From Limnoperna fortunei (Eukaryota; Mollusca; Bivalvia; Mytilida; Modiolidae): a stretch of DNA of 64,000 nt. The notes below the pieces were generated by a model. It ran no database searches and was not told where the DNA came from. It saw only the letters and a list, made by a program, of their open reading frames with translations. Location of the stretch: positions 29,039,220 to 29,103,219 of the forward strand of contig OX104114.1 of NCBI GenBank assembly GCA_944474755.1, given 5' to 3'. Of the stretch, positions 19,301 to 45,870 are shown one piece after another (position 1 is the stretch's first letter; the number at the start of each line of letters is the position of its first letter). Position numbers and translations under genes: made by a program.

Positions 19301-22057
19301 TTTAGTGGTTTTCACGACACAGCATTTATTAAAAAACTTCATAGCAACAGCTTGAAGAAGTCTACCAGTAACAGAACTACACAATCACGTTACCTTCCCA
19401 TTGAAAACATTAGGGGTTTCGTAGAAACGCCCTCCAGCTAAACCTACTGGCCACATTGACAGCTTTTTTGTGTACCTTAACTACAACGAGAAATAAATTT
19501 GCATATGAATGAGATCAGTGGTCATGTGATTTTGTACGATAAATACCACTTTTGTAGATTAAGAAAAAAAAGGGTGAACTAAACGCCAAACAAAATTTGA
19601 TCTGTATTGTAAAATTAAAAAAAAACAGTATGGAGCGATTAATTTGGCCAATCAAGTTGAAATAAAAGTGCAGCAAGTGGAATAACACACAATAAGATAG
19701 TTGTTTCAAACCTTGTCTTAATATTTTTTTTATTTTCGCCATTAATGTAGATATTCATCTTCTGATTTTAGTTTGTTTTCAAGTATGCACTAATCCTGTC
19801 ACGAACCACCTACATATTACAATCATAATCTATCTAAGTACCAACCTAACCTATAGTTTTTTTGCTTCAGTCAACATTTAGTCGCCCTTTGCTATCCTAG
19901 TTACATGCTTTATTGTTGTAAATTTGCGTGTGTCCTTAATACGTTAGTGTATAGCTGAAATACTGCACGCTGAATCAATCAATCAATCAATCAATAATTC
20001 AATCAATCAATCAATAAATTAAGAGATTAACTGTTCGAATATTTCAAGGCTGTATGAGTCATCATCGTCTACGAAGTAAATCACAGCCCGAATATTTTGA
20101 TTGTGATGATCCATAATCCAATCAAGCGCTGCATTTCGCTGGTCAGAACCTCTGATGTAAGCTTTCGTTTTATTTAGTGTCCTTCTTGCTATATACTTAA
20201 AAGACAATCCGGTTGAGTTCAAAATCTCATAAATATTCGGATTAATAACATCTGAATCCTCCACAACAATCCAGTATAGACTTTGAACCTGTCGTAGAGT
20301 GTTAGCTAATCGTGTTACGTCAGCACGTTGTACGAGACGATAATATGTAGGTGTAATGGCGTATATAATGGGAAGTTCATTTACTGTTGAAACAAACTTG
20401 AATGTTCTGTAATCTTGAATAAAAAAGGCTGGTATTTTATATATTTACACTATATTTGTTCCGTTTCATATGAGTACAATATTCTGTTTAAACTTGGAAT
20501 CAATTAACATAATTGTTACAGTGTAACCTGCATATACTGATTTATCCCAATTAGGAATTATTTTGTTTGTTTTGTTTTGTTTGTTTGAATATTGCTTATT
20601 GTCACATTCAGCAATTTTCAGCTTTATCGTGGCGTCTAGTTTTTATTGGGGGGAGGGGGAGAAGACAGAGTACCCACGACCTTTGGTAGTAGTTTGCAAT
20701 CCTTGTCAATTAAGATTATAGTATAGCGCACCCTACTCCCAGTGAGTCTCGAACCCATAATCCCGGTGTTGACAGACCATGTGATTGTGATCAATAAATA
20801 GTAGACAAACTACCTTAACTACTTGGCCAACGATGCGCCTTTCGTTTCTATGTTCAGTGTATATAGATCTAAAATATCGTAACTGCAGTTTATGACCAAA
20901 TTTGCTGCATTTTTGTGAAGTCAAAAAACGGAAGTAAAATCCAATATAACACACAAATTTTTGAGGCCGCCGACCATAATAACTTAATCAATGATTTGTT
21001 TTATGAAGTTCAAATATTAATATACAAAAAAAATCATAACAATTGTTCGTTGTTAGGCGGCATCAGTACTTATTCCTATTTCAAATAGACAATTTGGTTT
21101 GATATTTGCATTATTGCTTAATGTTTTATCAATACACGGGATTTCAAGACGAGGAAAAAAGGAACTGTTTCATTCTTGTGAATTCTTGTGAATTGACCGA
21201 ATATTAAGGTATCTATGCCTAATAAAACTGAGTGCTTTGATGAAACTATGAATAACACCTATATACTGGAATACTTTATAATAAAGTGTGATCAAAAACA
21301 TACAGTTCAGTCAGCCCTTGTTTTCCCATTTGTACAAAATTGAAGGTAGCTAAAACATTCTTATATTCACTTAATATACAATCTATTTAATCTTTTTCTT
21401 ATTTGAGCTGTCTTTTGTTCTGGAAAATTAATCATTTTGTACGAAGGACGAAAGATCTACGTTGACAGCAGAACACAATTTATTATTTAAAGTCAGTTTT
21501 TATTGCAATAATATAATTTCACATTTTTAAATTGCGTTTAACATGTCGTCCAGTTTCTATTGGCAGAGGTAGCCGGTATACCAGGAGAAAACTCTAGACC
21601 TTTGTTGGACAACATAAAATTCTCGCCAATTAAGATTGGAGTTGTGTACGTCCTGCCCATTTAGAATCGAAACTCAAACTTAGTGATGAAAGTCACATGC
21701 TCAATGGTAGATTTACTACCTTTACCACTCAAGGCCTTAATTAAAAGAAAACAATTGATAAATACAAATTTAAAAAAGAAATAATCATAAACAGGCGTTA
21801 GACAATACTTTTGTGAAGACAGATGTCCTCAAATATACTGAATATATGGTTTTAAAGTACTTTAAACTAAGAACTAATTACCAGTTAAAAACGCGAAGAA
21901 AACAGCCAAAACAATAAATATAATGATGGTCAACAAACGTAAAATCCTGATTTTGTACTTGAAAACATTAGTAAATAACTGTCTAGTCATCGTAAAACAG
22001 GTGTAGCCTGTGACAGTCATATTCTTATAATAATCTCTTTATCGAAGTCCAATATAC
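13297..22057 (-). CDS. B3GAT: Beta-1,3-glucuronosyltransferase gene (GT43), five exons recovered
   Basis: GT43 enzymes transfer glucuronic acid from UDP-GlcA to terminal galactose in the Golgi, either on the proteoglycan linker region or on HNK-1-type glycans. They are type II membrane proteins. Exons recovered on the minus strand are 22057-21882 (ATG at 21990, membrane anchor), 20406-20031 (UDP-binding half with DDD), 19480-19394 (WPVG), 16015-15812 (DMAGFALN and the catalytic Glu in LETKFLE) and 13365-13297 (WHT and stop). Reading frame is continuous across the last four exons. The anchor exon ends in phase 1 and the DDD exon starts in phase 2, so a short stem exon is missing from my model. 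The splice donor after the DDD exon reads TT instead of GT, while the pseudogene copy at 52,722 keeps GT. The protein sequence itself is free of stops, so the gene is either newly damaged, allelic, or uses another donor. Confidence 0.85.
14460..14730 (-). pseudogene. LINE RT C-terminal fragment
   Basis: The minus-strand reading includes LPIDIQFNLFDSFFQPILL followed by YGSEIWG. A frame shift later it reads VHLQFCKRILGLRTST. This is the thumb/post-RT region of RTE/CR1-like LINEs ('PILLYGSEIWG ... HLQFCKRILG'). Only about 270 bp remain, with a stop between the two parts. It lies in the intron between the last two B3GAT exons. Confidence 0.7.
15215..15390 (+). repeat. Diverged tRNA-derived SINE
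   Basis: A head like 'gatgaccgattaggtaaggt', a box B-like 'attgtgagttctagtctga' and a body 'tgctaaattgcctgttttcc' match the SINE family in diverged form. The paralogous copy lies at 49,905-50,070, so this insertion predates the duplication. Confidence 0.6.
15812..16015 (-). CDS. B3GAT: B3GAT exon with DMAGFALN and catalytic Glu
   Basis: Exon of 204 nt flanked by acceptor 'ctaattttgcag' and consensus donor AAG|GTAAGA. It encodes VYNFSAWNTKKRKFAIDMAG, then FALN, LPGMLETKFLE and DIEPLADECTK. In GT43 structures the DMAGFA(I/V)N strand lines the acceptor pocket, and the Glu of the GxxExxFL-like block is the general base. Both are present. No counterpart exists in duplication copy 2: 50,070-50,520 holds other repeats at the equivalent place. 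Confidence 0.9.
16097..16128 (+). repeat. (TG)n/(TTTG)n microsatellite
   Basis: A short run of alternating TG followed by TTTG units lies just downstream of the DMAGFALN exon on the plus map. Confidence 0.8.
16911..17060. repeat. Imperfect hairpin MITE-like repeat
   Basis: The left arm 'tatacgttcatatccgtaga' and the following 'tgtagattttaacacct' pair with 'aggtgtttaaatctctatat' and 'ctatggatatgaacgtgtat'. The loop is GC-richer ('cgccctgaggcgaagccg'). Arms of about 45 bp give a ~150-bp foldback. Present only in copy 1 of the duplication. Confidence 0.7.
17597..19045. repeat. Recent 728-bp tandem direct duplication
   Basis: The block starting 'ccgtaatcgatatcgcggtg' at about 17,598 recurs at about 18,326 with a 728-bp offset and nearly no differences. 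Both units end in 'gtagaaaatttattgacaca'. The junction near 18,312-18,330 shows a small 'taatccgtaatccgtaat' stutter. High identity marks it as the youngest rearrangement in copy 1, or as an assembly duplication. No coding function is recognised. Confidence 0.9.
19394..19480 (-). CDS. B3GAT: B3GAT exon with WPVG motif
   Basis: Exon of 87 nt (29 codons), acceptor 'cgttgtag', donor AAG|GTAACG. It reads LRYTKKLSMWPVGLAGGRFY, then ETPNVFNGK. It corresponds to the RSTRRVSVWPV block of vertebrate GT43 enzymes, between the DDD strand and the DMAGFA strand. Frame is phase 0 on both sides. The paralogue (51,756-51,834) is 8 bp shorter and frameshifted. Confidence 0.9.
19968..20020 (+). repeat. (AATC)n microsatellite
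   Basis: About ten imperfect AATC units abut the DDD exon of B3GAT, within 15 bp of its damaged splice donor. Slippage here could have contributed to loss of the donor, though the change looks like a single substitution. Confidence 0.8.
20031..20406 (-). CDS. B3GAT: B3GAT exon with DDD nucleotide-sugar motif
   Basis: Acceptor 'caagattacag' is followed by FKFVSTVNELPIIYAITPTY, then RADVTRLANTL, LYWIVVEDSD, RGSDQRNAALDWI and VIYFVDDDDSYSLEIFEQ. ITPTY, LVVEDS-like and DDD are the UDP-GlcA and Mn2+-binding elements of GT43. The frame requires splicing straight after CAG at 20031, where the next bases are TTAATC. The paralogous exon at 52,722 has GTAATC. The substitution lies at plus-strand position 20030 (A where C is expected). 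Confidence 0.9.
20555..20835 (-). repeat. tRNA-derived SINE
   Basis: The full family body is in minus orientation, with 'gggttcgagactcactggga', 'gacaaggattgcaaactact' and a TTTG-rich tail on the plus map at 20,561-20,590. It lies in the B3GAT intron between the DDD exon and the anchor exon. Confidence 0.75.
21525..21735 (-). repeat. tRNA-derived SINE, decayed
   Basis: Diverged minus-strand copy: 'gtcgtccagtttctattggc' (plus map), 'ccaattaagattggagttgt', and a head complement 'tcaatggtagatttactacc'. Confidence 0.65.
21882..22057 (-). CDS. B3GAT: B3GAT signal-anchor exon
   Basis: The exon starts after acceptor 'ttatttatttcag' at 22058. The ATG at 21990 gives 36 residues: a basic N-terminus (MTRQLFTNVFKYKIRILR) followed by a hydrophobic stretch (LLTIIIFIVLAVFFAFL). 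It ends at donor ACTG|GTAATT. This is the layout expected for a type II Golgi anchor. It is too short for ordinary ORF detection. In duplication copy 2 only the acceptor and 5' untranslated start (about 53,900-53,930) survive, and the coding part is missing. Linkage to the downstream exons is inferred from position and topology. Confidence 0.65.
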
Positions 22058-24704: not shown

Positions 24705-25132
24705 CTATGACTCAGCGAAAATGTCAGATTGTATTTTAGACACTGATTTCCCATCACGATCAATTAAGTCATGGTGACGACCATAGAACTTCTTGAGAGA
24801 TAACATCAGCCTAGGTGCAACAAACCCTTGCTTGAGTAGTTTAGCAGTCAGCAGCAATGATCGGTCTAGAAAATCGGAATACCGATCGCAAGATGTAGAA
24901 TAACGTATAAGTTGTGAAATGTACACACCATACGCCGGAGCTGCTGGAATGTTGCTGTCGGTGAACGGGAAGTTGACAATTGGAACGTTGAAGTTATCAC
25001 GTTTGTCGTAGTCTAGTTTGTAGTTTTCCTGAGTCAATTCTAGAAGTAGGTCTAAGTAAGAGTCTGACCTTAGTGTATTTGTGGTGTCTTTAATTTCAAG
25101 CTCGGGTAAATTGAATGTAAATAATCACCAAA
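24705..25132 (-). pseudogene. RT family, C-terminal half (split by nested element X)
   Basis: The open minus-strand frame reads PELEIKDTTNT, SYLDLLLE, YDKRDNFNVPIVNFPF, YGVYISQLIRYS and KKFYGRHHDLIDRDGKSVS to a stop near 24705. It starts abruptly at the left end of element X, with TTTGGTGATTATTTACATTC as first bases. The N-terminal half lies at 39,011-39,434, ending with TFRYIDDVLSLNNAK. Joined in the mind, the two give an uninterrupted target AAA|TTT. The family is widespread in molluscs and cnidarians and resembles Penelope-like RTs. Confidence 0.85.
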
Positions 25133-25493
25133 GGACAAGGTAGGGTAAGGGCCATTTTTGGCCCCCTCTTGAAAATAACTCATCTTTGCAGTAATTTGAG
25201 CATCCAGACATAGCATTAAAAATACGGTCTTATTTTGGTGCTATCATGCGCATGCGCGATACACTTCACGTGCTTCCATGCTTGCCAAATCTATTGGCTA
25301 TTTCAATTCAGCTTTAATTTGAAGATGGTTTCAGTAAATTAACTTCTGTTCTGCTCATCAAATATTCACCAAATGTTAACACACGATGTATAGATACCTG
25401 TTACAGGCAGGTTCTGATTTAAATAAATATAGAAAAACTTTATCTCGCAAAAATGAATGCTTTTCTCATGCAAAAATCTTTGCTTTTTGAGAA

Positions 25494-25757
25494 TTACAAG
25501 CTTTTAAACCAAAACTTGGTAATCACTATTTCTTCGTCAATTTTATCACAATATACAAATTGATAGAAGATACAGGCAGAAGGTAATTTTAAATAAGGGC
25601 TGTCTGGGTTAAAAGTTTTTTTTTCTGTTGATAAAAAGCTGTTAAACAAGTAATAAAATATAGATTTGTCGGAATTACCTCCCTTGTTAAAGATTGAATT
25701 TTCATTATGTTTGCCTTTACCGAACTCGTCATATCGAAAACTTTGATGTTTAAACAA
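25494..25757 (-). CDS. Small unassigned ORF in element X
   Basis: An 87-codon ORF that is identical at protein level in the inner X copy (37,766-38,029, plus strand). It is rich in Phe, Lys and Asn, with no motif I recognise. Identity between the two copies reflects the young age of the nested insertion and is not evidence for selection. Confidence 0.2.
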   Translation of the reverse strand: MFKHQSFRYDEFGKGKHNENSIFNKGGNSDKSIFYYLFNSFLSTEKKTFNPDSPYLKLPSACIFYQFVYCDKIDEEIVITKFWFKSL

Positions 25758-26129
25758 TTAATAAGGAGATTTGATATTAAGGTTATAAGTCTGTCGTAGT
25801 ATTTAATAATTTTATTGAAATGAGTTAATAATGAAAGATATTAATGTTAATTTTACCATCAGTGCAATATCTATTCTGAGATTTCCAGAAAAAACGGAGG
25901 ATGGTGTCCTGCATCCCATCAAGTCAAACAAATTATTTTTGTGTGACCTTATTGGTAAGACAAACTGTTAAACAATTATATAATAGCGAACAAAATATCT
26001 ATTTTTGCAAAAACCAATATTTAAATCTAATTTGTATTAGGTAAATCCCAAACATAATTACTTTTAGGAAGATATATAGATCCATTTCAAAGGTGCGTTT
26101 AAATTCTGTTTAGATGTTCTACCATGCAT

Positions 26130-26610
26130 AGTTTCAGCGGAACTGACATATTCCAAAAACTTTAACATAGTCACTGGACCGTGGTCAATGTCAGAAGACA
26201 CCTGTCATATATTATTCAACAGGAACCTAAATTCCAGGTATTGTCATTACACTATGCATAGTTTCACTGACCAAAAAATTTTAACGTATTCACTGGACCA
26301 TGAAATGAAAGGTCATGTTCAGGCGAAATTTGTACTATTCAACAGGAACCTATATGCCATGCCACTCATTCATCCTACCATGCACAGTTACAACAGAAGT
26401 AACCTTATCCACAAACGTTAGCGTAGTGATATGAATTCTAGTCAAGGTCAGGTGACACCTATCAAACTTGCATGTACTATTTGTCAGCAAACTATATAAA
26501 AAATATTGTCATGTTACAATGCGTGGTTACTGAGAAACTGACAGAACTCAAATAATTTTAACGTAGTCCCCTAACTGTGAAATTTATATTTAAACTTTAC
26601 ATTTGTATAT
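26130..26610 (-). repeat. Old ~145-bp tandem repeat inside X
   Basis: About three degenerate units in minus orientation contain 'acctgaccttgac', 'cagtgaatacgtta' and 'tgcatggtaggatga'. These are the same landmarks as in the 146-bp array of element T (28,960-30,140). The inner X copy carries them at 36,930-37,410. One repeat family thus occurs in two unrelated transposons at very different degrees of homogeneity. Confidence 0.7.
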
Positions 26611-27239
26611 TACTATTCCTGAAGTCGGAGATTGAGCATGCATAAAACCTGGTTTAACCCATCATTTCTTTTGAAGTGCCTGTACCAAGTCAGGGCCATT
26701 GCTGTAATTACTACATTGTGACAGTTTCTATGATACTATGATACCCATTTCTCTGGCGGGATAACGTACCACTGGCCTGCTGAAGCTCGAAATTCGAAAT
26801 CGGATTGCACTATGTTCAAGTTAACATTGTGTCCAAATCCGCGAAAATTCGGTCAACATTCAAAACATAATTAACTTGAAATGCGGCCGCCACAGTAGCA
26901 GTAAAAAGTACTGAAATTATTGTATCTTTTTTGCATGGTTAGGAGAAAATTTTATAGATCCAAAGCGTAATGTTTAATTAAAAAGTATTAAATATTCACA
27001 TATGTATTACGATAGTTTATGCTATCCATAAACGATTATCTCACGTGGTTTCCTTGATGTTAACTGCCAAAAAAAAAAAAACAAGCACGAGTAAAAAAAT
27101 GGTAACGTTTAACTTAACGGGCAAATAATTTTACAGTTTAAAGGAGAAAATACAAAATAAATTTGTTTTCATTTATGACACAAATATCCCTCGTTATCAT
27201 GTAAATTATTATTTTATCACATGTAATGATATATATTTA

Positions 27240-27656
27240 GGGACCGGTCAATATTTTTTGGGGTGGTGGGACCGGTGCACAATGCAATAGGACACATACT
27301 TTTTTATGCTGGCGTATATATGGGACTCCAAATTTTGTCATTTTCAGCACTGATACGGATAGGACAGCTAGTTTTTTTTCATAACAATATCATCAATGAA
27401 AAAACTAATTTTTTCTGACGTTTTAATTCAAAACCAATATACTGTAATCGCACAACTTGTTTAACAAACATAAATACTGAATTGTAACCATAAAATTATT
27501 CACTAGATAGGACACACATTTTTATAACACATCTGATGTAGGACGGCAACTTTTTTGTATTTTAGGGAGATAGGACATAGCCCTTTTTACACCTGATAAT
27601 TTGATAGGCACCGGTCCCAACCCCCCCCCCCCCCCCAATTAATATTGACCGGTCCC
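27240..27656. mobile_element. Harbinger-type MITE in outer X
   Basis: TIRs GGGACCGGTCAATATT are flanked by TTA duplications (27237-27239 and 27657-27659). The size is 417 bp. A 3-bp TTA/TWA target is typical of PIF/Harbinger. One end carries a C16 run (27611-27636), the other a GGGGTGGTGGG stretch. The same MITE sits at the same place in the inner X (35,872-36,285), so it was acquired before X copied itself. Element T inserted directly beside its right end. Confidence 0.8.
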
Positions 27657-28099
27657 TTATCCAGTCGGGACGCCACGATTCGATTTGTCCGTTAAAGTGG
27701 GCGTTGTCATGACCGTGAAATCAGGGGAAATAACCACAATTTTTATAGGTGTCGCGCTAATCGCATATTTTCGTCTCGATGTAAACAAATCGCATCGATC
27801 GATATTTGTATGAAAATCAATAAAGAATTATGTAAATCTATAAAAACGAAATAAACGAGATTAAAGTTAAATAATTTTTGGAGGCAACTGACATAAAAAC
27901 TATAAGTTTACAGTGATATAAATATAGACTAAATAGTTTAACTGACACTCGTTCGTCAGCTCATTTTTCAGAAACGTAATTTGGCGGGGAAAAACCAGGT
28001 CTATATTTAACTGTCACAAATGCATCCCCCAGTATCAAATTAGAAAAAAATGCTAAAAATAGATAAAATAAACATAGAGAATCCCTCTATTCGTCCAAT

Positions 28100-28804
28100 C
28101 ACACATCACTATATCATTTACTTCCAAAAAAGAACATTGAAGCGGACGAGGACAAACTGCGCCATTTTGCAGAGTTAGGACGTATTAAAGTCATCTGCTG
28201 AAGCAAACAAGAACAATGTAAAAAGGTAAGTATAAAAAATATTCTGTTTTTGTATATTGATACATTATATGAACATTAATTATGTAGTAAATGGCAGAAA
28301 TACGTTAATATTTCTTGATTAGCTCTCGGTCCCTCGAGACCAGTCGACTTCGCCGATTTCCATATAGCCCTGCAGTTTGCTTAATTTATTTAAGAAATTT
28401 GTGTTATTAATTCCCTGTTTATTTCCCATGTAACATGTTAAGCACTGTACGGTCAAAGATAGACTCCACACACATGGGTGAAAGCTTGGCTGGCCGCGTA
28501 AGCATAGGCCTATTTATATCATATCAAATTTATTTTACTTTCTCTTTTGCATTGAGGTCCAAGTTTTAATTTTGCATATTATGTATATTCAAAGTGTTCC
28601 ATGCAGTTTCAATATTTAAAGATGTTTTCAACTATTAGTCATTTTGTTATAATCCACATTTTATTTATTTCAGGAAGTTTGTTTGGTCCATGGATAATGC
28701 CTATCCATTTACCTTTACAAGTTATTGGATGAAGATATTGGATGGAGTGAAAATCTGTGGACTTGAAATATTATCATTCTTAAGAGATTTATTTATTATT
28801 GAAT
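28100..28804 (+). other. Exon-like pair inside T
   Basis: A GC-richer block (28,150-28,225) ends in a strong donor AAAAAG|GTAAGT at 28226-28227. Downstream, 'tttatttcag' at about 28,665-28,674 is a strong acceptor, followed by ~130 bp up to the repeat element. Neither block has a long ORF. This could be the untranslated first part of a lost transposase gene or a non-coding transcript. Confidence 0.35.
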
Positions 28805-28818
28805 AATTATTTCCTTTT

Positions 28819-30210
28819 TGTCTCGCCTGCGACGTTTCGTCGCTGGAGGCGAGACATATGTATGGGAATCCGGCGGCGGCGGCGGCGGCGTAAACACTTG
28901 ACATCTTGCTTCATATATTTGTAAGCCCAAGCCCTAGGTCCATCAAATTTGGTCCAGAGGTAGCTTATGATGAGTACTTGCCAGTCAGTCACCTGTCACC
29001 TGACCTTGACCTCAATTTCACGGTCCAGCGACTACGTTAAAGTTTTTGGGTTACGACAGTTCCTCTGTAACTACGCATGGTAGGATGACAATATTTGGTG
29101 TATAGGTTGCTGATGACTAGTACATGACTGTCTGGTAGGTGTCACATGACCTTGACCTCAATTTCACGGTCCAGCGACTACGTTAAAGTTTTTGGGTTAC
29201 GACAGTTCCTCTGTAACTATGCATGGTAGGATGACAATATTTGGTGTATAGGTTGCTGATGACTAGTACATGACTGTCTGGTAGGTGTCACCTGACCTTG
29301 ACCTCAATTTCACGGTCCAGCGACTACGTTAAAGTTTTTGGGTTACGACAGTTCCTCTGTAACCACGCATGGTAGGATGACAATATTTGGTATATAGGTT
29401 GCTGATGACTAGTACATGACTGTCTGGTAGGTGTCACCTGACCTTGACCTCAATTTCACGGTCCAGCGACTACGTTAAAGTTTTTGGGTTACGACAGTTC
29501 CTCTGTAACCACGCATGGTAGGATGACAATATTTGGTATATAGGTTGCTGATGACTAGTACATGACTGTCTGGTAGGTGTCACCTGACCTTGACCTCAAT
29601 TTCACGGTCCAGTGAATACGTTAAAGTTTTTGGGTTACGGCAGTTACTCTGTTACCACGCATGGTAGGATGACAATCTTTGGTATATAGGTTGCTGATGA
29701 CTAGTACATGACTGTCTGGTAGGTTCCACCTGACCTTGACCTCAATTTCACGGTCCAGCGACTACGTTAAAGTTTTTGGGTTACGACAGTTCCTCTATAG
29801 CCACACATGGTAGGATGACAATATTTGGTATATAGGTTGCTAATGACTAGTACATGACTGTCTGGTAGGTGTCACTTGACCTTGACCTCAATTTCACGGT
29901 CCAGCGACTGCATTAAAGTTTTTGGGTTACGGCAGTTTCTCTGTAACTATGCATGGTAGGATGACAATATTTGGTATATAGGTTGCTGATGAATAGTACA
30001 TGACTGTCTATTAGTTTCCACCTGACCTTGACCTCAATTTCACTGTCCAGCGACTACGTTAAAGTTTTTGGGTTACGGCTGTTCCCCTGTAACTATGCAT
30101 GGTATGGTGACAATATTTCGTATACAGGCCGCTGCTGATATTTAATGCTATTTACGTAATGCTTATGATGAAATTTATTTTCGTTACTGATGCGGAATGC
30201 AGGCGAGACA
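28819..30210. mobile_element. 12-bp-TIR element carrying the tandem array
   Basis: The ends are TGTCTCGCCTGC and GCAGGCGAGACA. The left end also folds on itself (TGTCTCGCC ... GGCGAGACA, 28819-28856) and is followed by a (GGC)n run at 28870-28889. The core is the 146-bp array. The layout (hairpin end, simple repeat, tandem core of 140-160 bp) recalls the pearl/Helentron-associated interspersed elements of bivalves. That assignment is an inference. Confidence 0.6.
28960..30140. repeat. 146-bp tandem array, eight units
   Basis: The landmark 'cggtccagcg' or its variants falls at 29021, 29167, 29313, 29459, 29605, 29751, 29897 and 30043, every interval exactly 146 bp. The middle units are nearly identical and the edge units more diverged, as expected from unequal exchange. 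A truncated unit precedes the first. No indel has accumulated in any unit. Confidence 0.95.
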
Positions 30211-30244
30211 TTTTTCTGTGTCCACACTTGTTTACTTCTTTACA

Positions 30245-30246
30245 AT

Positions 30247-30321
<75 letters not shown>

Positions 30322-30325
30322 CTTA
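30245..30325 (+). repeat. (TTTA)n microsatellite
   Basis: About 20 near-perfect TTTA units, directly after the tandem-array element. Confidence 0.95.
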
Positions 30326-30329
30326 AACT

Positions 30330-31700
30330 ACATGCATATGATTTATTTTTGTTTTAAATTTATTTAAGTTATATTTTATTTATTTACTTGATAATTATTT
30401 CTAATATTTACTTCTTTACAGTATTTATTTAGATAACTTTCAAGACTTTTTTTAGTAATTTCTGTTTGAGTATTTTTTTTAAATTTTACTTGTATTAAAA
30501 CCAAACAGTCTTAACTGTAAGAATTAAAACTCTACAGTAGACCTGCAGATTACCTCTATTAAATTGCCTTTATGTATATAGGTACGAATTGAAATTAACC
30601 TGTAAGAGTTATTGCAACCTATGTACCCTTATATGCGTATGCTGGTCATTGTTTTATAGCGAGGAAAGAGTTAAGTCACATAAGTACCCTTACATGTGAA
30701 TGCTGCTCATTCTTTCTTGGTTTTTTTTTTGGTTGGGGGGTGGGGGGTGGGTGTGGAAGGTTATTGCAACCCAAGTACCCCTACATGTGTATGCTGGTCA
30801 GAAACACACATTTTTTAATTTTTAATTTAAATTCAGGTTTTGTTTGTTTATTTTTTTTTATTTTTGTTGTTGTAAGATGTCTTTTTAAATACTGTACATT
30901 GATAAATAATAATAATAATAAATGTTTAAGAAAAAATTATATTGCCCATGTTGCATTCAGTTGTCATTTTGTTAATTAGTGTGCATTTGCATTATTGATA
31001 CATGTACATGGAGCTTACCTCTTCACTTTTATTCTGTCATCATTTATTTGTTCTTAAAAAACACTGGACAAACACTATCTCCACGATGCTTATTAATAGA
31101 CATACTGTGTCTGACAGTTATGATTATTATTTACTGAAATTTCAAAAAATTGAGGATTCCCAATCTACATGACAGAAAAATTTAATACAGTGTACTGTAT
31201 AAATTTAAAATGAAAAAAATTGTAAAACCAGGTGTTCTTGAAGTATGATTAGTTTCCATCTTACATGTATTTATGGTAAAAATAAATCTTTGAAACTACC
31301 AACTCAATAAGTACAATGCTTTTGCATTTATCATATGGATGGTCTGCTACATTATGGTATTTTATGACATAAAAAAATGAAAACCCCATTCAACATTTTT
31401 TTAATTCCTGAAATTATATGTCATTTGGGCCTGAAGCCAGGTATGAAATTACAAATCTATGAATTACAAAAACAAACAAAAAACAAAACAAAGAAAAAAT
31501 CATAATCCCTCTATCAACAGAATGGGGGAATCGCTGGCGTTCCTGAACGGTTTTACCTCTATTTTAAAACAACATAATTATGCAGTGATAATGATTTGAA
31601 TTCTAAGAATGTAATATTTTCAATAACCTCTAGATTTTTAATCATTTTTGTAAAAAAAATCTCGTAATGAAACATTTCAGTTTCAACGTAAACCCACATC
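30330..31700. other. AT-rich interior of T
   Basis: No gene. A short dispersed repeat ('aagtacccttacatgtgaat' type) occurs three times between 30,605 and 30,800. A 45-bp block near 31,820-31,862 ('catttaactgtaacaattgc') repeats one near 27,998-28,042 in the same orientation. Confidence 0.45.
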
Positions 31701-32233
31701 TTCATTCGGAATAAAGATTCTAACGTCATTTTTCTGTACATTTAATGATTAGATGAATAACGTTCCGAATGTCAAAAATCCGAGCGTCGACATTCTTTGG
31801 GAAACCCCTATACAGGAAGAGACATTTAACTGTAACAATTGCATCCCCCAACTGATAAACATAATTTTTTGGTATCATTCGATAGCTAATATGAACTTTA
31901 AAGCATGTCTTTACTAGCAATTCATCACTATGACTATTAAACATCCAATTCAAGGAATTCCTAGCGCGGACATTTGAACAGTCGCCCCATCACCAACTTT
32001 AGACATACATTTTATTGTGATGCAGTGAGTATTTTATCGCATTTTGCATTAAAAAGGGTATACAATTTTCTCGTTAATTATATCTATGAAAAAATATTTA
32101 ATGTGTAACAAAGAGTAGCTCAAAATTTTGCATTTTCTACGGCATCGTCTGTTTACCTAATTTTGAATTAAAGTCACGTGACCCTGGTCATGACAATGGA
32201 ACTCTCCTGTGTCGGTGGCATCCCGGCTGTATC

Positions 32234-32396
32234 TACTTTTACACATCATCGGAAACCCACGTCAGGTCGCGTTCTCACTGTGCTACCACTTGCCTGTCGC
32301 GTTTTCGCTTTGCTACCACCACCGCTACCACCACCAAGTGGTAGCAAAGTGAGAACGCGACCGGGCATGGGTTTCCGACGATTACTTTTACAAGGT
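32234..32396. repeat. Hairpin in X (outer copy)
   Basis: Arms of about 57 bp ('ggtcgcgttctcactgtgct' against 'agcaaagtgagaacgcgacc') enclose a spacer of GGTGGTAGC-type repeats. The same hairpin lies at 35,701-35,862 in the inner copy. It starts within a few bases of where T inserted. Confidence 0.8.
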
Positions 32397-32491
32397 TAAA
32401 GAATATGCTCGCGCTGGCATTCGATGTTGCTACACCAATATATGTTTAAAACGTTTCCTGTTAATAAAAGCAAGCTAAATAGAAAATAAAC

Positions 32492-32572
32492 ATAGACCAT
32501 CGGGACTCGAACCATCGATTCGTGGTGTATAATATTCACAAGCTACGGGTTAAGCAAAAACGCCACATACAC
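32492..32572 (-). tRNA. tRNA-like unit 2, outer X
   Basis: On the minus strand: box A-like TGGCGTTTTTGCTTAACCC, box B GGTTCGAGTCCC, with usual spacing. The T-stem does not pair well, so this is tRNA-like or a tRNA pseudogene, not a proven tRNA. Its twin is at 35,530-35,605 (plus). Confidence 0.4.
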
Positions 32573-33117
32573 ACAGACATTTTCATTCAAAAGCAACTTA
32601 TTTATGCGTCATACAAGGCCGTAAACAAAAGGGGTGCACTGATTGCACGTGTACTCCTAGTCCGAGAATCCTCTGCTGCCTACGGCACTGTCATTTTGCA
32701 GACGTTATATATTTGCTAATAGATTAGTAGTTTTTATAACATCTTTAATTATTGCGTATAAAAAATAATGGTGTAAATTAACATTTATTGAGACATATCG
32801 AGATGTGATCGCTGAAGATGTTTTACTTCAATAAAAATGACTTCTAGAACAGTCTTATCAGTTTGTTGTTCGAGTGGATACAAACGAAACAAAATTAAAT
32901 TCTTTACGTTTACTTCGTCGGAACGTGTGTTTCGCGCATGTCATACGTTTCGTCCACTTTCGGTATTAGTTTAGACACATAATTTTTTCAACCTTTACGT
33001 ACCAATTGTGTTCTTTAAAATATTCTATTTTTGGACACTTCACTATCATTTATCATACAAACTTTCTTAAATATATGTGACAAATGAAAGTAGTCTTAAA
33101 AAAACAGCAACAAAAAA

Positions 33118-33203
33118 GAAAAACATCGGGACTCGAACCAGCGTTTCGCGATCTGTAATTCGTATAATCTGCGAGCTAACCAATTACGCCATATTTGCAC
33201 AAA
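33118..33203 (-). tRNA. tRNA-like unit 1, outer X
   Basis: On the minus strand: box A TGGCGTAATTGG followed by TTAGCTCGC, box B GGTTCGAGTCCC, then a TTTTT run that fits a Pol III terminator. Stem pairing is imperfect. Units 1 and 2 lie in two diverged tandem modules of about 600 bp, so X carries a duplicated tRNA-like cassette. Twin at 34,903-34,985 (plus). Confidence 0.45.
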
Positions 33204-33971
33204 CGTTTTCTTACGAAATTAAGACCTATTTATGCGTCAAATTGCTGACGTGATATATTTGATGATAGATGACACCAGTTTTTATACCATTTATAAGTAT
33301 TACGTAAAAGAAAAATTAAAAAGGTGTAACTTTAACATCTATTTAGACGTATTAGATCATATGAAGGTGTTATCTCTTAAGATTTTTTCATGAATAACAA
33401 TGTCTGGAACAGTCTTTTCATTATATTTTTACGCGTGTGTATTCAAACCAGTTAAACAAAGCGAAAATTCTTTACATTACTTCTAACTTTCTCTGATGTT
33501 TGTTAATCCGGTGATTCCGCGCATATTATACCTATCTTCCACATTCGCTTAATATTATTGTGGTAATTTTATTTATTTCAATCTGTGAACTAATTGCGTT
33601 CTATAAATATTCCATTTCCGGACGATTAAGTCTGCAACTTAATTTTTTCACAGTTTTGCCTCTTTAAATATGATTAAAAAATGCTACGCTTTGAAAGACA
33701 CGATCTTTCAAGACTTAAATAATCAATCTGGAATGGAAAGGACAAGGTAGGATAACCTACTGTCACTGGCCCGCTATTTTCGCTAAAAATGAAAAGACTA
33801 CAATCTGTAGATCATAATGTTTTTTCAAAGGTACATTATCCCTTCTTACAGAAAATCAATATAACTTTCTTTTCTTATCATGTAAAATAATTATATGCAC
33901 CTTACTAACATAGGCCAATTGTAGTGGCCTGTGAATATCGGTACGTTTTCGTGATTTCGAACACCATTTTA

Positions 33972-34078
33972 AATATGAGCGGAAGCGTGTACCACAAAGA
34001 TATTTGACTGTATTATTTGTTGCAAAAACAGTGTTTAATGTGTAAAATATATTTGTGGTACACGCGTCCGCTCATATT
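33972..34078. repeat. Short hairpin inside X
   Basis: AATATGAGCGGAAGCGTGTA at the left pairs with its complement ending at 34078. The stem is about 27 bp and the loop about 52 bp. The twin lies near 38,671-38,777. It may be a small MITE carried by X. Confidence 0.8.
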
Positions 34079-34902
34079 AAAAAATTAATATTTTGTCCCC
34101 AAATTCGCGTGATTTTTGTATTGTTCAGCATAGTATGTAAGCCTACAACCGGACCGGACTTGCATTTCCGAATCTGTATATACATCCATTTATGCTGATA
34201 ATTGTTAAACATTGTTGACAAACTTAGATAGAAATGTGTAAAAAAATCAATATAGGGATAAATTAAGTAAATATTTTAATATGTAACAATTTAAACGTTT
34301 AACAGTGATGAAACAGCTAAATTTTGATAATAAAATACATCTATCAGGCACTGATAAAATTTCCATTCCAGATTGATTATTTAAGTCTTGAAAGATCGTG
34401 TCTTTCAAAGCGTAGCATTTTTTAATCATATTTAAAGAGGCAAAACTGTGAAAAAATTAAGTTGCAGACTTAATCGTCCGGAAATGGAATATTTATAGAA
34501 CGCAATTAGTTCACAGATTGAAATAAATAAAATTACCACAATAATATTAAGCGAATGTGGAAGATAGGTATAATATGCGCGGAATCACCGGATTAACAAA
34601 CATCAGAGAAAGTTAGAAGTAATGTAAAGAATTTTCGCTTTGTTTAACTGGTTTGAATACACACGCGTAAAAATATAATGAAAAGACTGTTCCAGACATT
34701 GTTATTCATGAAAAAATCTTAAGAGATAACACCTTCATATGATCTAATACGTCTAAATAGATGTTAAAGTTACACCTTTTTAATTTTTCTTTTACGTAAT
34801 ACTTATAAATGGTATAAAAACTAGTGTCATCTATCATCAAATATATCACGTCAGCAATTTGACGCATAAATAGGTCTTAATTTCGTAAGAAAACGTTTGT
34901 GC

Positions 34903-34985
34903 AAATATGGCGTAATTGGTTAGCTCGCAGATTATACGAATTACAGATCGCGAAACGCTGGTTCGAGTCCCGATGTTTTTCTTTT
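34903..34985 (+). tRNA. tRNA-like unit 1, inner X
   Basis: Box A TGGCGTAATTGG at 34908-34919, box B GGTTCGAGTCC at 34960-34970, TTTTT at 34976-34980. Spacing and terminator fit a type 2 Pol III gene. Acceptor and T stems are not well paired, so function as a tRNA is doubtful. Confidence 0.45.
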
Positions 34986-35529
34986 TTGTTGCTGTTTTTT
35001 TAAAGACTACTTTCATTTGTCACATATATTTAAGAAAGTTTGTATGATAAATGATAGTGAAGTGTCCAAAAATAGAATATTTTAAAGAACACAATTGGTA
35101 CGTAAAGGTTGAAAAAATTATGTGTCTAAACTAATACCGAAAGTGGACGAAACGTATGACATGCGCGAAACACACGTTCCGACGAAGTAAACGTAAAGAA
35201 TTTAATTTTGTTTCGTTTGTATCCACTCGAACAACAAACTGATAAGACTGTTCTAGAAGTCATTTTTATTGAAGTAAAACATCTTCAGCGATCACATCTC
35301 GATATGTCTCAATAAATGTTAATTTACACCATTATTTTTTATACGCAATAATTAAAGATGTTATAAAAACTACTAATCTATTAGCAAATATATAACGTCT
35401 GCAAAATGACAGTGCCGTAGGCAGCAGAGGATTCTCGGACTAGGAGTACACGTGCAATCAGTGCACCCCTTTTGTTTACGGCCTTGTATGACGCATAAAT
35501 AAGTTGCTTTTGAATGAAAATGTCTGTGT

Positions 35530-35605
35530 GTATGTGGCGTTTTTGCTTAACCCGTAGCTTGTGAATATTATACACCGCGAATCGATGGTTCGAGTCCCGA
35601 TGGTC
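35530..35605 (+). tRNA. tRNA-like unit 2, inner X
   Basis: Diverged tandem relative of unit 1: box A TGGCGTTTTTGCTTAACCC, box B GGTTCGAGTCCC at about 35588-35599. No clean terminator follows. Confidence 0.4.
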
Positions 35606-35700
35606 TATGTTTATTTTCTATTTAGCTTGCTTTTATTAACAGGAAACGTTTTAAACATATATTGATGTAGCAACATCGAATGCCAGCGCGAGCATATTCT

Positions 35701-35862
35701 TTAACCTTGTAAAAGTAATCGTCGGAAACCCATGCCCGGTCGCGTTCTCACTTTGCTACCACTTGGTGGTGGTAGCGGTGGTGGTAGCAAAGCGAAAACG
35801 CGACAGGCAAGTGGTAGCACAGTGAGAACGCGACCTGACGTGGGTTTCCGATGATGTGTAAA
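35701..35862. repeat. Hairpin in X (inner copy)
   Basis: Mirror copy of the hairpin at 32,234-32,396, with the same arms around a GGTGGTAGC spacer. Confidence 0.8.
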
Positions 35863-35871
35863 AGTAGATAA

Positions 35872-36285
35872 GGGACCGGTCAATATTAATTGGGGGGGGG
35901 GGGGTTGGGACCGGTGCATATCAAATTATCAGGTGTAAAAAGGGCTATGTCCTATCTCCCTAAAATACAAAAAAGTTGCCGTCCTACATCAGATGTGTTA
36001 TAAAAATGTGTGTCCTATCTAGTGAATAATTTTATGGTTACAATTCAGTATTTATGTTTGTTAAACAAGTTGTGCGATTACAGTATATTGGTTTTGAATT
36101 AAAACGTCAGAAAAAATTAGTTTTTTCATTGATGATATTGTTATGAAAAAAAACTAGCTGTCCTATCAGTATCAGTGCTGAAAATGACAAAATTTGGAGT
36201 CCCATATATACGCCAGCATAAAAAAGTATGTGTCCTATTGCATTGTGCACCGGTCCCACCACCCCAAAAAATATTGACCGGTCCC
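35872..36285. mobile_element. Harbinger-type MITE in inner X
   Basis: 414 bp, GGGACCGGTCAATATT ends, TAA flanks at 35869-35871 and 36286-36288 (complement of TTA). Beside it the T target site TATC is empty. Confidence 0.8.
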
Positions 36286-37765
36286 TAAATATATATCATT
36301 ACATGTGATAAAATAATAATTTACATGATAACGAGGGATATTTGTGTCATAAATGAAAACAAATTTATTTTGTATTTTCTACTTTAAACTGTAAAATTAT
36401 TTGCCCGTTAAGTTAAACGTTACCATTTTTTTACTCGTGCTTGTTTTTTTTTTGGCAGTTAACATCAAGGAAACCACGTGAGATAATCGTTTATGGATAG
36501 CATAAACTATCGTAATACATATGTGAATATTTAATACTTTTTAATTAAACATTACGCTTTGGATCTATAAAATTTTCTCCTAACCATGCAAAAAAGATAC
36601 AATAATTTCAGTACTTTTTACTGCTACTGTGGCGGCCGCATTTCAAGTTAATTATGTTTTGAATGTTGACCGAATTTTCGCGGATTTGGACACAATGTTA
36701 ACTTGAACATAGTGCAATCCGATTTCGAATTTCGAGCTTCAGCAGGCCAGTGGTACGTTATCCCGCCAGAGAAATGGGTATCATAGTATCATAGAAACTG
36801 TCACAATGTAGTAATTACAGCAATGGCCCTGACTTGGTACAGGCACTTCAAAAGAAATGATGGGTTAAACCAGGTTTTATGCATGCTCAATCTCCGACTT
36901 CAGGAATAGTAATATACAAATGTAAAGTTTAAATATAAATTTCACAGTTAGGGGACTACGTTAAAATTATTTGAGTTCTGTCAGTTTCTCAGTAACCACG
37001 CATTGTAACATGACAATATTTTTTATATAGTTTGCTGACAAATAGTACATGCAAGTTTGATAGGTGTCACCTGACCTTGACTAGAATTCATATCACTACG
37101 CTAACGTTTGTGGATAAGGTTACTTCTGTTGTAACTGTGCATGGTAGGATGAATGAGTGGCATGGCATATAGGTTCCTGTTGAATAGTACAAATTTCGCC
37201 TGAACATGACCTTTCATTTCATGGTCCAGTGAATACGTTAAAATTTTTTGGTCAGTGAAACTATGCATAGTGTAATGACAATACCTGGAATTTAGGTTCC
37301 TGTTGAATAATATATGACAGGTGTCTTCTGACATTGACCACGGTCCAGTGACTATGTTAAAGTTTTTGGAATATGTCAGTTCCGCTGAAACTATGCATGG
37401 TAGAACATCTAAACAGAATTTAAACGCACCTTTGAAATGGATCTATATATCTTCCTAAAAGTAATTATGTTTGGGATTTACCTAATACAAATTAGATTTA
37501 AATATTGGTTTTTGCAAAAATAGATATTTTGTTCGCTATTATATAATTGTTTAACAGTTTGTCTTACCAATAAGGTCACACAAAAATAATTTGTTTGACT
37601 TGATGGGATGCAGGACACCATCCTCCGTTTTTTTCTGGAAATCTCAGAATAGATATTGCACTGATGGTAAAATTAACATTAATATCTTTCATTATTAACT
37701 CATTTCAATAAAATTATTAAATACTACGACAGACTTATAACCTTAATATCAAATCTCCTTATTAA

Positions 37766-38029
37766 TTGTTTAAACATCAAAGTTTTCGATATGACGAGTT
37801 CGGTAAAGGCAAACATAATGAAAATTCAATCTTTAACAAGGGAGGTAATTCCGACAAATCTATATTTTATTACTTGTTTAACAGCTTTTTATCAACAGAA
37901 AAAAAAACTTTTAACCCAGACAGCCCTTATTTAAAATTACCTTCTGCCTGTATCTTCTATCAATTTGTATATTGTGATAAAATTGACGAAGAAATAGTGA
38001 TTACCAAGTTTTGGTTTAAAAGCTTGTAA
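37766..38029 (+). CDS. Small unassigned ORF in element X, inner copy
   Basis: Same 87-codon ORF as at 25,494-25,757, with identical translation. No domain recognised. Confidence 0.2.
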   Translation: MFKHQSFRYDEFGKGKHNENSIFNKGGNSDKSIFYYLFNSFLSTEKKTFNPDSPYLKLPSACIFYQFVYCDKIDEEIVITKFWFKSL

Positions 38030-39010
38030 TTCTCAAAAAGCAAAGATTTTTGCATGAGAAAAGCATTCATTTTTGCGAGATAAAGTTTTTCTATATTTAT
38101 TTAAATCAGAACCTGCCTGTAACAGGTATCTATACATCGTGTGTTAACATTTGGTGAATATTTGATGAGCAGAACAGAAGTTAATTTACTGAAACCATCT
38201 TCAAATTAAAGCTGAATTGAAATAGCCAATAGATTTGGCAAGCATGGAAGCACGTGAAGTGTATCGCGCATGCGCATGATAGCACCAAAATAAGACCGTA
38301 TTTTTAATGCTATGTCTGGATGCTCAAATTACTGCAAAGATGAGTTATTTTCAAGAGGGGGCCAAAAATGGCCCTTACCCTACCTTGTCCTTTTATCAGT
38401 GCCTGATAGATGTATTTTATTATCAAAATTTAGCTGTTTCATCACTGTTAAACGTTTAAATTGTTACATATTAAAATATTTACTTAATTTATCCCTATAT
38501 TGATTTTTTTACACATTTCTATCTAAGTTTGTCAACAATGTTTAACAATTATCAGCATAAATGGATGTATATACAGATTCGGAAATGCAAGTCCGGTCCG
38601 GTTGTAGGCTTACATACTATGCTGAACAATACAAAAATCACGCGAATTTGGGGACAAAATATTAATTTTTTAATATGAGCGGACGCGTGTACCACAAATA
38701 TATTTTACACATTAAACACTGTTTTTGCAACAAATAATACAGTCAAATATCTTTGTGGTACACGCGTCCGCTCATATTTAAAATGGTGTTCGAAATCACG
38801 AAAACGTACCGATTTTCACAGGCCACTACAATTGGCCTATGTTAGTAAGGTGCATATAATAATTTTACATGATAAGAAAAGAAAGTTATATTGATTTTCT
38901 GTAAGAAGGGATAATGTACCTTTGAAAAAACATTATGATCTACAGATTGTAGTCTTTTCATTTTTAGCGAAAATTGGGGGCCAGTGACAGTAGGTTATCC
39001 TACCTTGTCC

Positions 39011-39434
39011 TTTAGCATTGTTGAGGGACAAAACATCATCAATATAGCGGAATGTTAAATTAAAGGTCTGGGCCAGTGTCTTTTCTTTCTTCATCAGCAG
39101 GCCTCTTAGGAACTCAGCCTCATAAGAGTACAAATATAGGTCGGCGAGGAGAGTAGCACAATTTGTACCAATTTGAATACCAACAGTCTGTTCAAAGACC
39201 TGTCCTCCAAACATGACGAATATGTTGTCAATCTGAAAATCTAACGTATGACAGATTTGGTCTTGAGTATATTTAGTATTAGATTTATAGTCATTGATGA
39301 CGAAGTAAATTCTTTCATGACTAATTACTAAGTATTTATATCGTGTCTTTCCGTTTTTCTTAAAAAAGCAGCGTTAAATTCGGCGAAGAACCTATTAGTG
39401 TCAACAATGAAAACGATGTTTTCTGAAGCGGGCA
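39011..39434 (-). pseudogene. RT family, N-terminal half (split by X)
   Basis: The open minus-strand frame runs from about 39434: FLRKNGKTRYKYLVISHERI, DFQIDNIFVMFGGQVF, GIQIGTNCATLLADLYLYSY, TFRYIDDVLSLNNAK. It is cut after AAA by the right end of X. GTNC and YIDD are RT motifs B-like and C, and both look intact. The 5' part is missing beyond 39,435, where an unrelated tandem repeat begins. With 24,705-25,132 it makes one RT gene broken by the X insertion. Confidence 0.85.
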
Positions 39435-39436: not shown

Positions 39437-40490
39437 GATGCATTCGGGTAAACGAACTTGTGCTATCGCTTTATATCAAGCTGGGATACTGTCCCAAGAA
39501 ATTATAAATAGAACTGGACAGTACAAATTGCGAACTATAGTTTTTAAAGTTCTTAAACATATAATTTCATTTGATTTTTGTCATATTTTTCAAACAGTTC
39601 TTTTTACAAAAGAGATATACACCACCGTTTTAGGACTTTTTTTAGGTAAGTCAATGCAGACCTTGATTTAAAACCGTGGGTTAGTATGTATATAACTTAC
39701 TCTTTTTACAAACAAAAAATGTTTCAACCATAGTATATAATATATTTCGAAACTTCAAAATTACAAGATTCTTGAATGTACATGAGCTAAAGACAGGAAC
39801 AACTTAACCTTTACGTTACGGTAGAATATTACCTTCATTCTCTTAAATGCTAAACCAACGTTTTCACACTAAGGTCACAAGGGTCATTCATCGTGGTATT
39901 ATGCGCATATATGTAAAGTATTACATTATATATGTACATCTATTATTTATGGCGAGAACATTCGGGTAAACGAACCTCTGCTATCGCTTTATATCAAGCG
40001 GGGATACTGTACCAAGAAATTATAAATAGAACTGGACAGTAAAAATTGCGAACATTAGTTTTTAAAGTTCTTAAACATATAATTTCATTTGATTTTTGTC
40101 TTATTTTTCAAACAGTTCTGTATAAAAAAGAGATATACACCACCGATTTAGGATTTTCTTTTAGGTAAGTCAACTGTAGGCCTTGATTTAAAACTGTGGG
40201 TTAGAATGTATATAACTTACTCTTTTTACAAACAAAAAATGTTTCAACCATAGTACATAATATATTTCGAAACTTCGAAATTACAAGATTCTTGAATGTA
40301 CATGAGCTAAAGACAGGAACAACTTAACATTTACGTTAAAGTAGAATATTACCTTCATTCTCTTAAATGCTAGACCAACGTTTTGACACTAAGGTCACAA
40401 GAGCACTTCATTCATCATAGTATTATGCGCATATATGTAAAATATTACGTTATATATGTACATCTATTATTTATGGCGAGAACATTTTTA
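39437..40490. repeat. Tandem pair of ~525-bp units
   Basis: 'cattcgggtaaacgaac' starts units at about 39,440 and 39,960. Both end in 'tctattatttatggcgagaa'. Divergence is a few percent. No coding content. The left edge coincides with the 5' truncation of the RT fragment. Confidence 0.9.
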
Positions 40491-40560: not shown

Positions 40561-41689
40561 ACAATTGTACGAAAGCCCAGAAGGCTCATTCGATATTCGA
40601 AATTCGAGATTCAAGATTCGAAACTCGAAATTCGAATATTCGAAATTCGAAATTCGAGATTCGAGATTCGAAACTCGAGATTCGAAATTCGAAATTCAAT
40701 ATAGTTATAACCAATCAAATTGTGTGTAACAAAATCCTCTACCAATCAGAATAATTCTTATATAAACGTGCTATTATGCTTATTTGGTGTTTTAACAGTC
40801 GACATATTTGTCAACGAATGACTTGTTCAACATGGTTTTGTTAAAAAAATCAAATTTATAAGCTTTATTTGTTATTTTATCAAATGAATTCAGTTTACAA
40901 TAACATCTTGATTTTACAAATCAAGAAACAAAAATGTACATGTAAAACGGAATTTTTTTGTGTGTGGGGCTATCAGGGGTGGATCCAGAGGGGGCCCTCC
41001 CTTTTGACGGAAAAATTTGGTTGGATATATAGGAAATCATTGAAGCATGACCAAAGTGGCCCCCCTTGGCCAGTCAGTGCCCCACCCTTTTCGAAATTTT
41101 GGATCCGCCACTGGCTTATTTTGGCCCTTTGAACTTAGAAATGTGCTGAAAATACCCATTAATTATCTTGTCAGCACAAATCCTCTGAAACTACTCAGTA
41201 CTATACAAAATTTTATGAAACTTGGTATGTAACTAGTACACCATATATGTAGTGCATATTATCAGGAATTGTTGATTCCTAAATTTATATGGTAGTTATG
41301 GCTCTTTGAACTTGGGAATTTTCAGTAATCCTCAATAATCATGGTTTTAGCATTAACTCCCCTAAAACAACTCAACCAAATTTTATGTAGTTTCGATATA
41401 ACCAAGGAATTCTGATTGGTAGAGATTATGTCACACGCAATCTAATTAGCTAAAACTATATTGAATTTCGAATTTCGAATCTCGATTTTCGAATTTCGAA
41501 TCTCGAATTTCGAATTTTGAATCTCGAATCTCGAATTTCGAATATATAAGAACTATTCTGATTGGTTGACGATTATGTCACACGCAATCTGATTGGTTAT
41601 AACTATATTGAATTTCGAATTTCGAATCTCGAATTTCGAATTTCGATTCTCGAATTTCGAATGAGCCTTCTGGGCTTTCGTACAATTGT
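40561..41689. mobile_element. Foldback element built from TTCGAAA repeats
   Basis: The outer TIR ACAATTGTACGAAAGCCCAG followed by AAGGCTCATTCGA is present at both ends. Next, both arms contain a short-period array of ATTCGAAATTCGAGATTCGA type (40,588-40,700; 41,465-41,660), then a further inverted block ('ataaccaatcaaattgtgtg' type) that is doubled on the right. A nested MITE lies in the centre. No TSD could be identified with confidence. Confidence 0.85.
40972..41116. mobile_element. Small MITE nested in the foldback element
   Basis: It starts 'caggggtggatccagagggg' and ends 'ttttggatccgccactggc'. GGATCC-containing inverted ends with G- and C-rich subterminal stretches match a MITE type common in molluscs. 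Confidence 0.6.
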
Positions 41690-44579: not shown

Positions 44580-45870
44580 AAATGTCAATCTGCGGGTTAA
44601 GTCCGTCTGGATGTAGTGTTTGAAGTTTTTTTTTATCAAAAAAGGATTCTTTGACTTTTCTGTAAGTATCTTCCCATAGACTTTTTCAATTCCAGGTACC
44701 GAGAAATCATCAATGCTGTGTCCATCTGTATAAAAATGTGTGGCTACGGAGTCTTGTTTTTTTTCTTATTTTTGAAAAGTTTAAAAGCATTTTGTGATAA
44801 AACGTGTCACCAGTTTGTCCAACATATACAATACTGTTACATGTTTTACAAAATATCGCATAAATTATTCCAACTGTTTTACAATTTATATGTCCTTGTA
44901 TCTGGTATTTTGTCCCGTCCTTTCCTTTAAAACTATTATCTTTAACTATGTATGGGCACAAAGCACAATTTTTGCCGCATGGCTCACATTTATTTTCTTT
45001 ATGATAAAATTTGTTATTATGTTTCTTATGGACAAGAATATCTTTTATATTTTTGTCTCTGCGGAATGCAACTAGTGGTGGTTGTGGAAAAATATCTTTT
45101 AAATTTTCTGATCTGTGTAATGTTGATATGTGTTTATGTAAAATTGAATGGATGTTAGGTAAGGTATCGGAATAGGTCAATACCAGTGGCACTCTGTCAT
45201 TTTTTTTTCGTTTTGTATTTGAGAAGGTCTTCCCTGTCTAAATTGTCTACTTTATTTAGTTGTTTAATGATCAGTTCCGTTTTGTATCCCCGTTTTTGAA
45301 GCTGTTCTTTCAAATCATTTTTTCTCCTTTCATACTCTGTTGGTATAGAACAAATTCTTTTTAATCTCACACCAATGCCATATGGAATTGATTCTTTGGT
45401 TTTTCTAAGGTGGTTTGAACTTATATGTAAATATTGATGTTTATCTGTTTCTTTTGAATAAAGATCAGTTTCAATATATCCGTTTGAAATTTGTATTTTG
45501 GTGTCAAGAAATACTATCGTATCTTTTGATGATCTTAATCTCGAGTTTTATTCGGGGGTAAATATTGTTAGCCGTATTTACAAATTCATTGAGTGTATCT
45601 TCTCCGCTTGTCCATATTCCCCAAATATCATCTACATACCTCCAGTAGCATAATGGTTTATGTTCACTAATCTCAAATAGTTTTTTTCCCATTGACCCAT
45701 GTACGCACACGCATAATTCATTCCTAGTTTAGATCCGATGGCTGTTCCTGAATATAAAATTTATTATTGAATAAAAAATATTATTTTCAAAAACAACGTC
45801 CATTAAAGTTAAAGCATCTTCAGTTGGTATCTTTATAGATAGAAATATAAATTCAAAAACGAATCTATAT
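44580..45870 (-). pseudogene. Penelope-like element (RT plus GIY-YIG endonuclease)
   Basis: Order on the minus strand: PTEDALTLMDVVF (near 45,800), ACAYMG, CYWRYVDDIWGIW (RT motif C, near 45,640), a frameshift near 45,540, FLDTKIQISNGYIETDLYSK, SIPYGIGVRLKRICSIP, RRKNDLKEQLQKRGYKTEL. After a stop near 45,205 it continues TYSDTLPNIHSILHKHI, FRRDKNIKDILVHKK, a Cys-rich CEPCGKNCALC, and the GIY-YIG core YAIFCKTCNSIVYVGQTG (near 44,800). It ends HFYTDGHSIDDFSVPG in another frame. Penelope-like elements combine this RT with a GIY-YIG nuclease. The 5' part of the RT is missing and at least three lesions are present. Confidence 0.9.

Follow-up and report, generated by a model that had tools for sequence, protein, structure and literature searches.

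The locus between positions 25133 and 39010 of the window, the whole 64-kb stretch of DNA that was analysed, raises two questions: did a transposon insert into a copy of itself without duplicating a single base of its target, and which kind of transposase would have moved it? The original prediction described four ends, at 25133, 33740, 38390 and 39010, bounding an element X of about 4.65 kb with a second X inverted inside it, and this architecture was borne out. Exact matches to GGACAAGGTAGG occur at four places in the 64-kb window and nowhere else, namely at 25133 (+), 33740 (+), 38379-38390 (-) and 38999-39010 (-), for a composition-based expectation of 0.0018 exact 12-mers. Matches with 2 mismatches add two places, 3885 and 49921, which is the number that chance would give; the chance expectation at up to 2 mismatches is 1.85, and six places were reached in 2 of 100 shuffles. 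The terminal repeats begin with the outermost base of X on either side, where they are identical over the first 12 of 12 bases and over 15 of 16 overall, with divergence beyond, and the termini read GGAC...GTCC. The two copies, their terminal repeats and a foreign insertion, E, are positioned as follows.

25133..39010, plus strand: outer X copy, 4655 bp without E and the inner copy, interrupted by both
33740..38390, minus strand: inner X copy, 4651 bp, inverted relative to the outer copy
25133..25148, plus strand: outer left terminal repeat, GGACAAGGTAGGGTAA
38995..39010, minus strand: outer right terminal repeat, GGACAAGGTAGGATAA, read inward
33740..33755, plus strand: inner right terminal repeat, GGACAAGGTAGGATAA
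38375..38390, minus strand: inner left terminal repeat, GGACAAGGTAGGGTAA, read inward
27662..32229, no strand assigned: E, foreign insertion of 4568 bp, present in the outer copy only, with terminal repeat CAGYCGGGAYGCCAC (13/15)

The reverse complement of the inner copy was aligned with the outer copy minus both inserts, as the prediction had proposed. The two are nearly identical: across 4657 columns they show 11 mismatches and 4 indel events, and BLAST of the two copies agrees (11 mismatches, 4 gap openings). X can be described as a segment A (4031 bp) followed by a segment B (620 bp), and the order along the locus is A B' A' B, with E located within the first A. This order creates long inverted arms of about 4.03 kb separated by a spacer of 620 bp, which corresponds to the palindromic arms of roughly 4 kb that had been anticipated.

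Each X copy was expected to lie exactly between AAA and TTT, and this is the case at both copies (2/2). The halves of the two targets, and an intact version of the inner one, are found at these positions.

AAA 25130..25132 and TTT 39011-39013, plus strand: outer target halves
AAA 33737..33739 and TTTT 38391-38394, plus strand: inner target halves
34351..34369, minus strand: intact empty version of the inner target, GGAATGGAAATTTTATCAG, within the inner copy

The inner junction reads ggaatggAAA/X/TTTTatcag and the outer junction AAA/X/TTT, with slashes at the limits of X. Compared with the empty site, the inner insertion has gained zero bases and lost zero bases, so that the claim of an intact site in the inner copy with no base duplicated holds. 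No exact flank repeat of 1-15 bp was found at either X copy. The position of the boundary is unambiguous, since the first base of X is G and its last is C, next to A and T outside. Outside the element, AAATTT is found at 94 of 50117 window positions, and the chance of finding it at two of two junctions is about 3.5e-6.

The control for the outer copy comes from the sequence that it interrupts. The outer X splits a reverse-transcriptase reading frame on the minus strand, the two parts of which are given below.

39011..39373, minus strand: reverse-transcriptase frame, first part, resuming at 25132 and leftwards
24705..25132, minus strand: reverse-transcriptase pseudogene, second part, with a frame shift about 9 codons past the junction

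Once joined, the flanks read DDVLSLNNAK/FGDYLHSI in one frame (the slash marks the junction), in which AAA is the K codon and TTT the F codon. The joined translation (residues 1-135) was used as a query and 347 relatives were found; the alignment is ungapped over the 18 junction residues in 120 of the 120 relatives examined, which are the 120 listed of these 347. The frame change about 9 codons past the junction is a lesion separate from X. Neither flank piece was named by Pfam at E<=0.01, and the pieces are called reverse transcriptase because several of the relatives carry PF00078. The intact site of the inner copy and the reading frame through the joined outer flanks thus indicate that neither X insertion duplicated any bases. 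Zero duplication at AAA/TTT holds for both insertions, which are independent and each provided with an empty-site control, and so extends beyond the single insertion for which it had been claimed.

When a target duplication is missing, it is usually difficult to say whether none was made or it has since decayed. E and M3, a small element common to both X copies, act as internal positive controls for the detection of duplications in this locus. E has the ends CAGTCGGGACGCCAC and CAGCCGGGATGCCAC and is flanked by a 4-bp duplication, TATC, at 27658-27661 and 32230-32233. Two six-frame Pfam matches were considered for an E-encoded protein and rejected, both being under the curated cut-offs. The two occurrences of M3 are located as follows.

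27240..27656, no strand assigned: M3 in the outer copy, a small element with GGGACCGGTCAATATT ends and a TTA duplication
35872..36285, no strand assigned: M3 in the inner copy, with GGGACCGGTCAATATT ends and a duplication that reads TAA on this strand (= TTA)

The TTA duplication is kept in both. Decay is therefore a poor explanation for the zero duplication of X, since E keeps TATC and M3 keeps TTA. M3 is one component of the interior of X, which is a patchwork that also includes a palindrome (35719-35854), duplicates that have diverged, and repeats resembling the 146-bp array of E. An exact 10-bp repeat, TGTAAAAGTA, is found 1-2 bases outside the ends of the palindrome. The patchwork predates the spread of both copies, as these near-identical copies both carry it and E is unshared.

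We searched the locus and the wider window for coding content and for relatives of X. Six frames of the inner X, with stops masked, matched no Pfam family at E<=1, and the same six-frame search found no single-ORF DDE/HTH transposase of the Spy clade. No sequence similar to X was found elsewhere in the window at E<=1e-4. A window scan for inverted repeats with AAA/TTT flanks returned 199 pairs, and five other flank pairs gave 69-159; all but 11 of the 199 fall in X, E or the repeats at 40.5-41.7 kb, and with such counts for other flanks the scan is uninformative. The pair at 40575-41675 is not counted as Spy-like because its inverted arms extend past the AAA/TTT flanks. When viral_contigs was scanned for AAA joined to the 16-bp X end, one locus, L001, was returned, which is a probable chance match: blastn found no similarity to the window at E<=1e-3 (12,680 of 22,572 bases compared), no CCTTGTCC partner end lies downstream on that strand, and the 320 bases around the match were inspected. 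The window itself is AT-rich, with 4 frames of at least 120 aa, and has a glycosyltransferase-43 stretch at 20019-20444; its composition and repeat style suggest an invertebrate, perhaps a bivalve. It contains no tRNA detected by ARAGORN and no Rfam family at gathering score. Candidate matches in X to mir-5014, MIR7127, MIR6274 and MIR1878 were discarded, with Rfam scores under gathering and positions on plain palindromes.

The likely reading is that X is a non-autonomous transposon and that a Spy-type transposase (PHIS superfamily) made elsewhere in the genome moved it. This reading is based on the AAATTT target and the zero duplication, which match the published behaviour of Spy. The Spy traits found in X are zero duplication (2/2), the AAA/TTT target (2/2) and inverted terminal repeats (15/16). 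The original prediction had characterized Spy by an AAA/TTT target and no duplication, and passages of two papers agree: AAATTT is the preferred target, without duplication, in those of PMC4482050, and most Spy elements are flanked by 5'-AAA and TTT-3' in those of PMC11304231. According to the same portions of PMC11304231, Spy ends measure 5-691 bp and intact elements 1165-5910 bp, a range that includes X, and the hosts are Arthropoda, Cnidaria and Mollusca, with 4 elements in 4 molluscs. For an active Spy, the same paper puts about 60% of the integration sites in human cells at AAWTT, with no duplication. X thus resembles Spy by its inverted terminal repeats, AAA/TTT insertion, absence of duplication and size. 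Unlike Spy, it is without a transposase gene, and the comparison covers target, duplication, repeats and size.

X is filed as Spy-like only, because no Spy-clade transposase was found in it. The prediction of a large non-autonomous Spy derivative stands for the Spy-like target and zero duplication, and the non-autonomous state fits the lack of any Pfam match at E<=1; X may also descend from Spy, but the analysis turned up no transposase behind these ends. The small count also limits the case for Spy, with two insertions and no transposase or autonomous relative seen. Efficiency data in PMC11304231 make for a less easy fit: an active insect Spy had lower efficiency with inserts of 3.1-8.5 kb, short-ended Spy donor plasmids were non-functional in human cells, and the 4.65-kb size and 16-bp ends of X sit uneasily with both.

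Could X instead represent a new, separate zero-duplication lineage that is not Spy? We consider this unlikely. No transposase ties X to Spy and X is without a Pfam match, which leaves room for such a lineage, and Harbinger relatives vary in their duplications (0, 2 or 3 bp) according to portions of PMC12730594. Two other PHIS groups differ from X in this respect. ISL2EU, which forms one lineage with Spy in a low-support tree in portions of PMC12730594 and a separate clade in those of PMC4482050, usually has ends that begin with GG, as X does (passages of PMC4482050), which speaks for the Spy-type reading; unlike X, which has no duplication at either site, it duplicates a 2-bp AT. X is similar to PIF/Harbinger (PHIS) elements in being a cut-and-paste element with inverted repeats, and the TTA that M3 duplicated within X is of the TWA kind, but Harbinger duplicates 3 bp (TWA) and X none. 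A literature search for further zero-duplication DDE groups in eukaryotes found none, a weak indication that there are none. A second origin is needless, because the target and the zero duplication of X both match traits of Spy as set out in the published passages.

It is very improbable that X is a non-autonomous rolling-circle element, either Helitron or Helitron2. Helitrons insert without duplication, canonically between A and T, and the zero duplication of X and its AAA/TTT junction, which includes A/T, are compatible with this. Small hairpins are also found close to both X ends, with modest z values of -1.4 to -2.1. In passages of PMC5148889, small terminal hairpins are likewise described for Helitron2, and Helitron2 and composite Helitrons share with X the absence of duplication and nested self-insertions. 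The same passages argue against this assignment: canonical Helitron ends are TC...CTRR whereas X has GGAC...GTCC, and the 3' repeat of Helitron2-type elements is set back from the end by about 20-40 bp whereas the repeats of X are terminal, so that both the terminal motifs and the position of the inverted repeats differ. The inverted repeats of X are at the very ends on both sides, and six-frame Pfam gave no match in X to a Rep or helicase family. That the palindrome is an assembly artefact, from a folded-back read or a haplotype misjoin, is hardly credible: long inverted repeats are known to mislead assembly, but 11 substitutions and 4 indels set the two arms apart, E is present in one arm only, and the palindrome turns precisely where transposon ends meet AAA/TTT.

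For the Spy-type reading, a transposase from elsewhere would bind the ends of X and cut X out as double-stranded DNA. Both strands would then be joined in the middle of AAATTT, at bonds lying directly opposite each other, leaving no overhang to fill in and hence no duplication. The nesting of one copy in the other sets the order of events. X initially inserted into the reverse-transcriptase gene or pseudogene, and a second X, without E, later inserted into the first in inverted orientation, using one of the AAATTT sites that X itself carries. E inserted into the outer copy only after that copy was in place.

X carries eight AAATTT sites, and the inner copy lies in the one at X position 4029. 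A nested landing is thus to be expected now and then for an element with this target. The self-insertion had been called unusual, which is overstated given these eight sites and the nested Helitron self-insertion reported in portions of PMC5148889. For Spy, no description of a nested self-insertion was found in the Spy and self-insertion literature by title and abstract start, and none is given in passages of PMC10294476, PMC10045372, PMC9179366, PMC4298943, PMC4482050, PMC12730594 and PMC5148889; the words nested, MITE and non-autonomous are absent from PMC11304231. As a case of nested self-insertion the locus is clean and instructive, though one to be expected occasionally.

The long inverted arms and the four similar ends may make the locus prone to rearrangement. 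The nested pair might even be a working composite, in which four near-identical ends, alternating in direction, allow the enzyme to pair ends from different copies, and the 13.9-kb A-B'-A'-B block or parts of it move, invert or break as units, although this is quite unlikely. If it were true, the locus would be a natural hot spot, with a transposon making its own targets; it would keep doing so because each X carries its eight AAATTT sites.

The observation is confirmed and strengthened, and the mechanism is Spy-like. Within the locus, two insertions of one family can be compared with their empty sites, beside two inserts that retain their duplications, and this combination establishes zero net duplication at AAA/TTT without a genome-wide alignment. 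If copies in the host confirm this, X would represent a large Spy-type family that lacks genes and is built internally from a mosaic of older insertions. The locus also offers a natural case for how cut-and-paste elements with a fixed target avoid or tolerate landing in themselves.

The outer copy of X, the Spy-like element of about 4.65 kb, is interrupted by a foreign insertion, E, a transposon-like unit of 4.57 kb (27662-32229) with imperfect 15-bp inverted ends (CAGYCGGGAYGCCAC) and a flanking 4-bp duplication, TATC. A Pfam search of its six frames returned no family over the cut-off. E includes a 146-bp tandem repeat of 7.8 copies (28994-30128), and diverged copies of the same repeat unit are also present in X. 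X additionally harbors a small palindromic element, at 35719-35854 and 32246-32381, with an exact 10-bp direct repeat, TGTAAAAGTA, a base or two beyond its ends. This repeat suggests a duplication of the Mutator-like kind.

To the right of X, 7-bp repeats of the ATTCGAA type make up inverted arms (40575-41675) that run past the AAA/TTT flanks of this pair. A tandem duplication with a spacing of about 520 bp (39441-40486) adjoins these arms.

The Pfam run on long frames located the domains of a decayed retrotransposon:
3599-8823, minus strand, decayed retrotransposon, RVT_1 and endonuclease in separate frames
5303-5647, minus strand, its RVT_1 frame
6361-7140, minus strand, its endonuclease frame

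Two further minus-strand reading frames (44710-45547), which had no match in Pfam, resemble the C-terminal portion of an element encoding a reverse transcriptase, with a GIY-YIG-like stretch. Of the 22 long frames, 10 were run through Pfam, and only one of these clearly belongs to a host gene: a minus-strand coding stretch of glycosyltransferase family 43 (20019-20444; Pfam, 9.5e-25).
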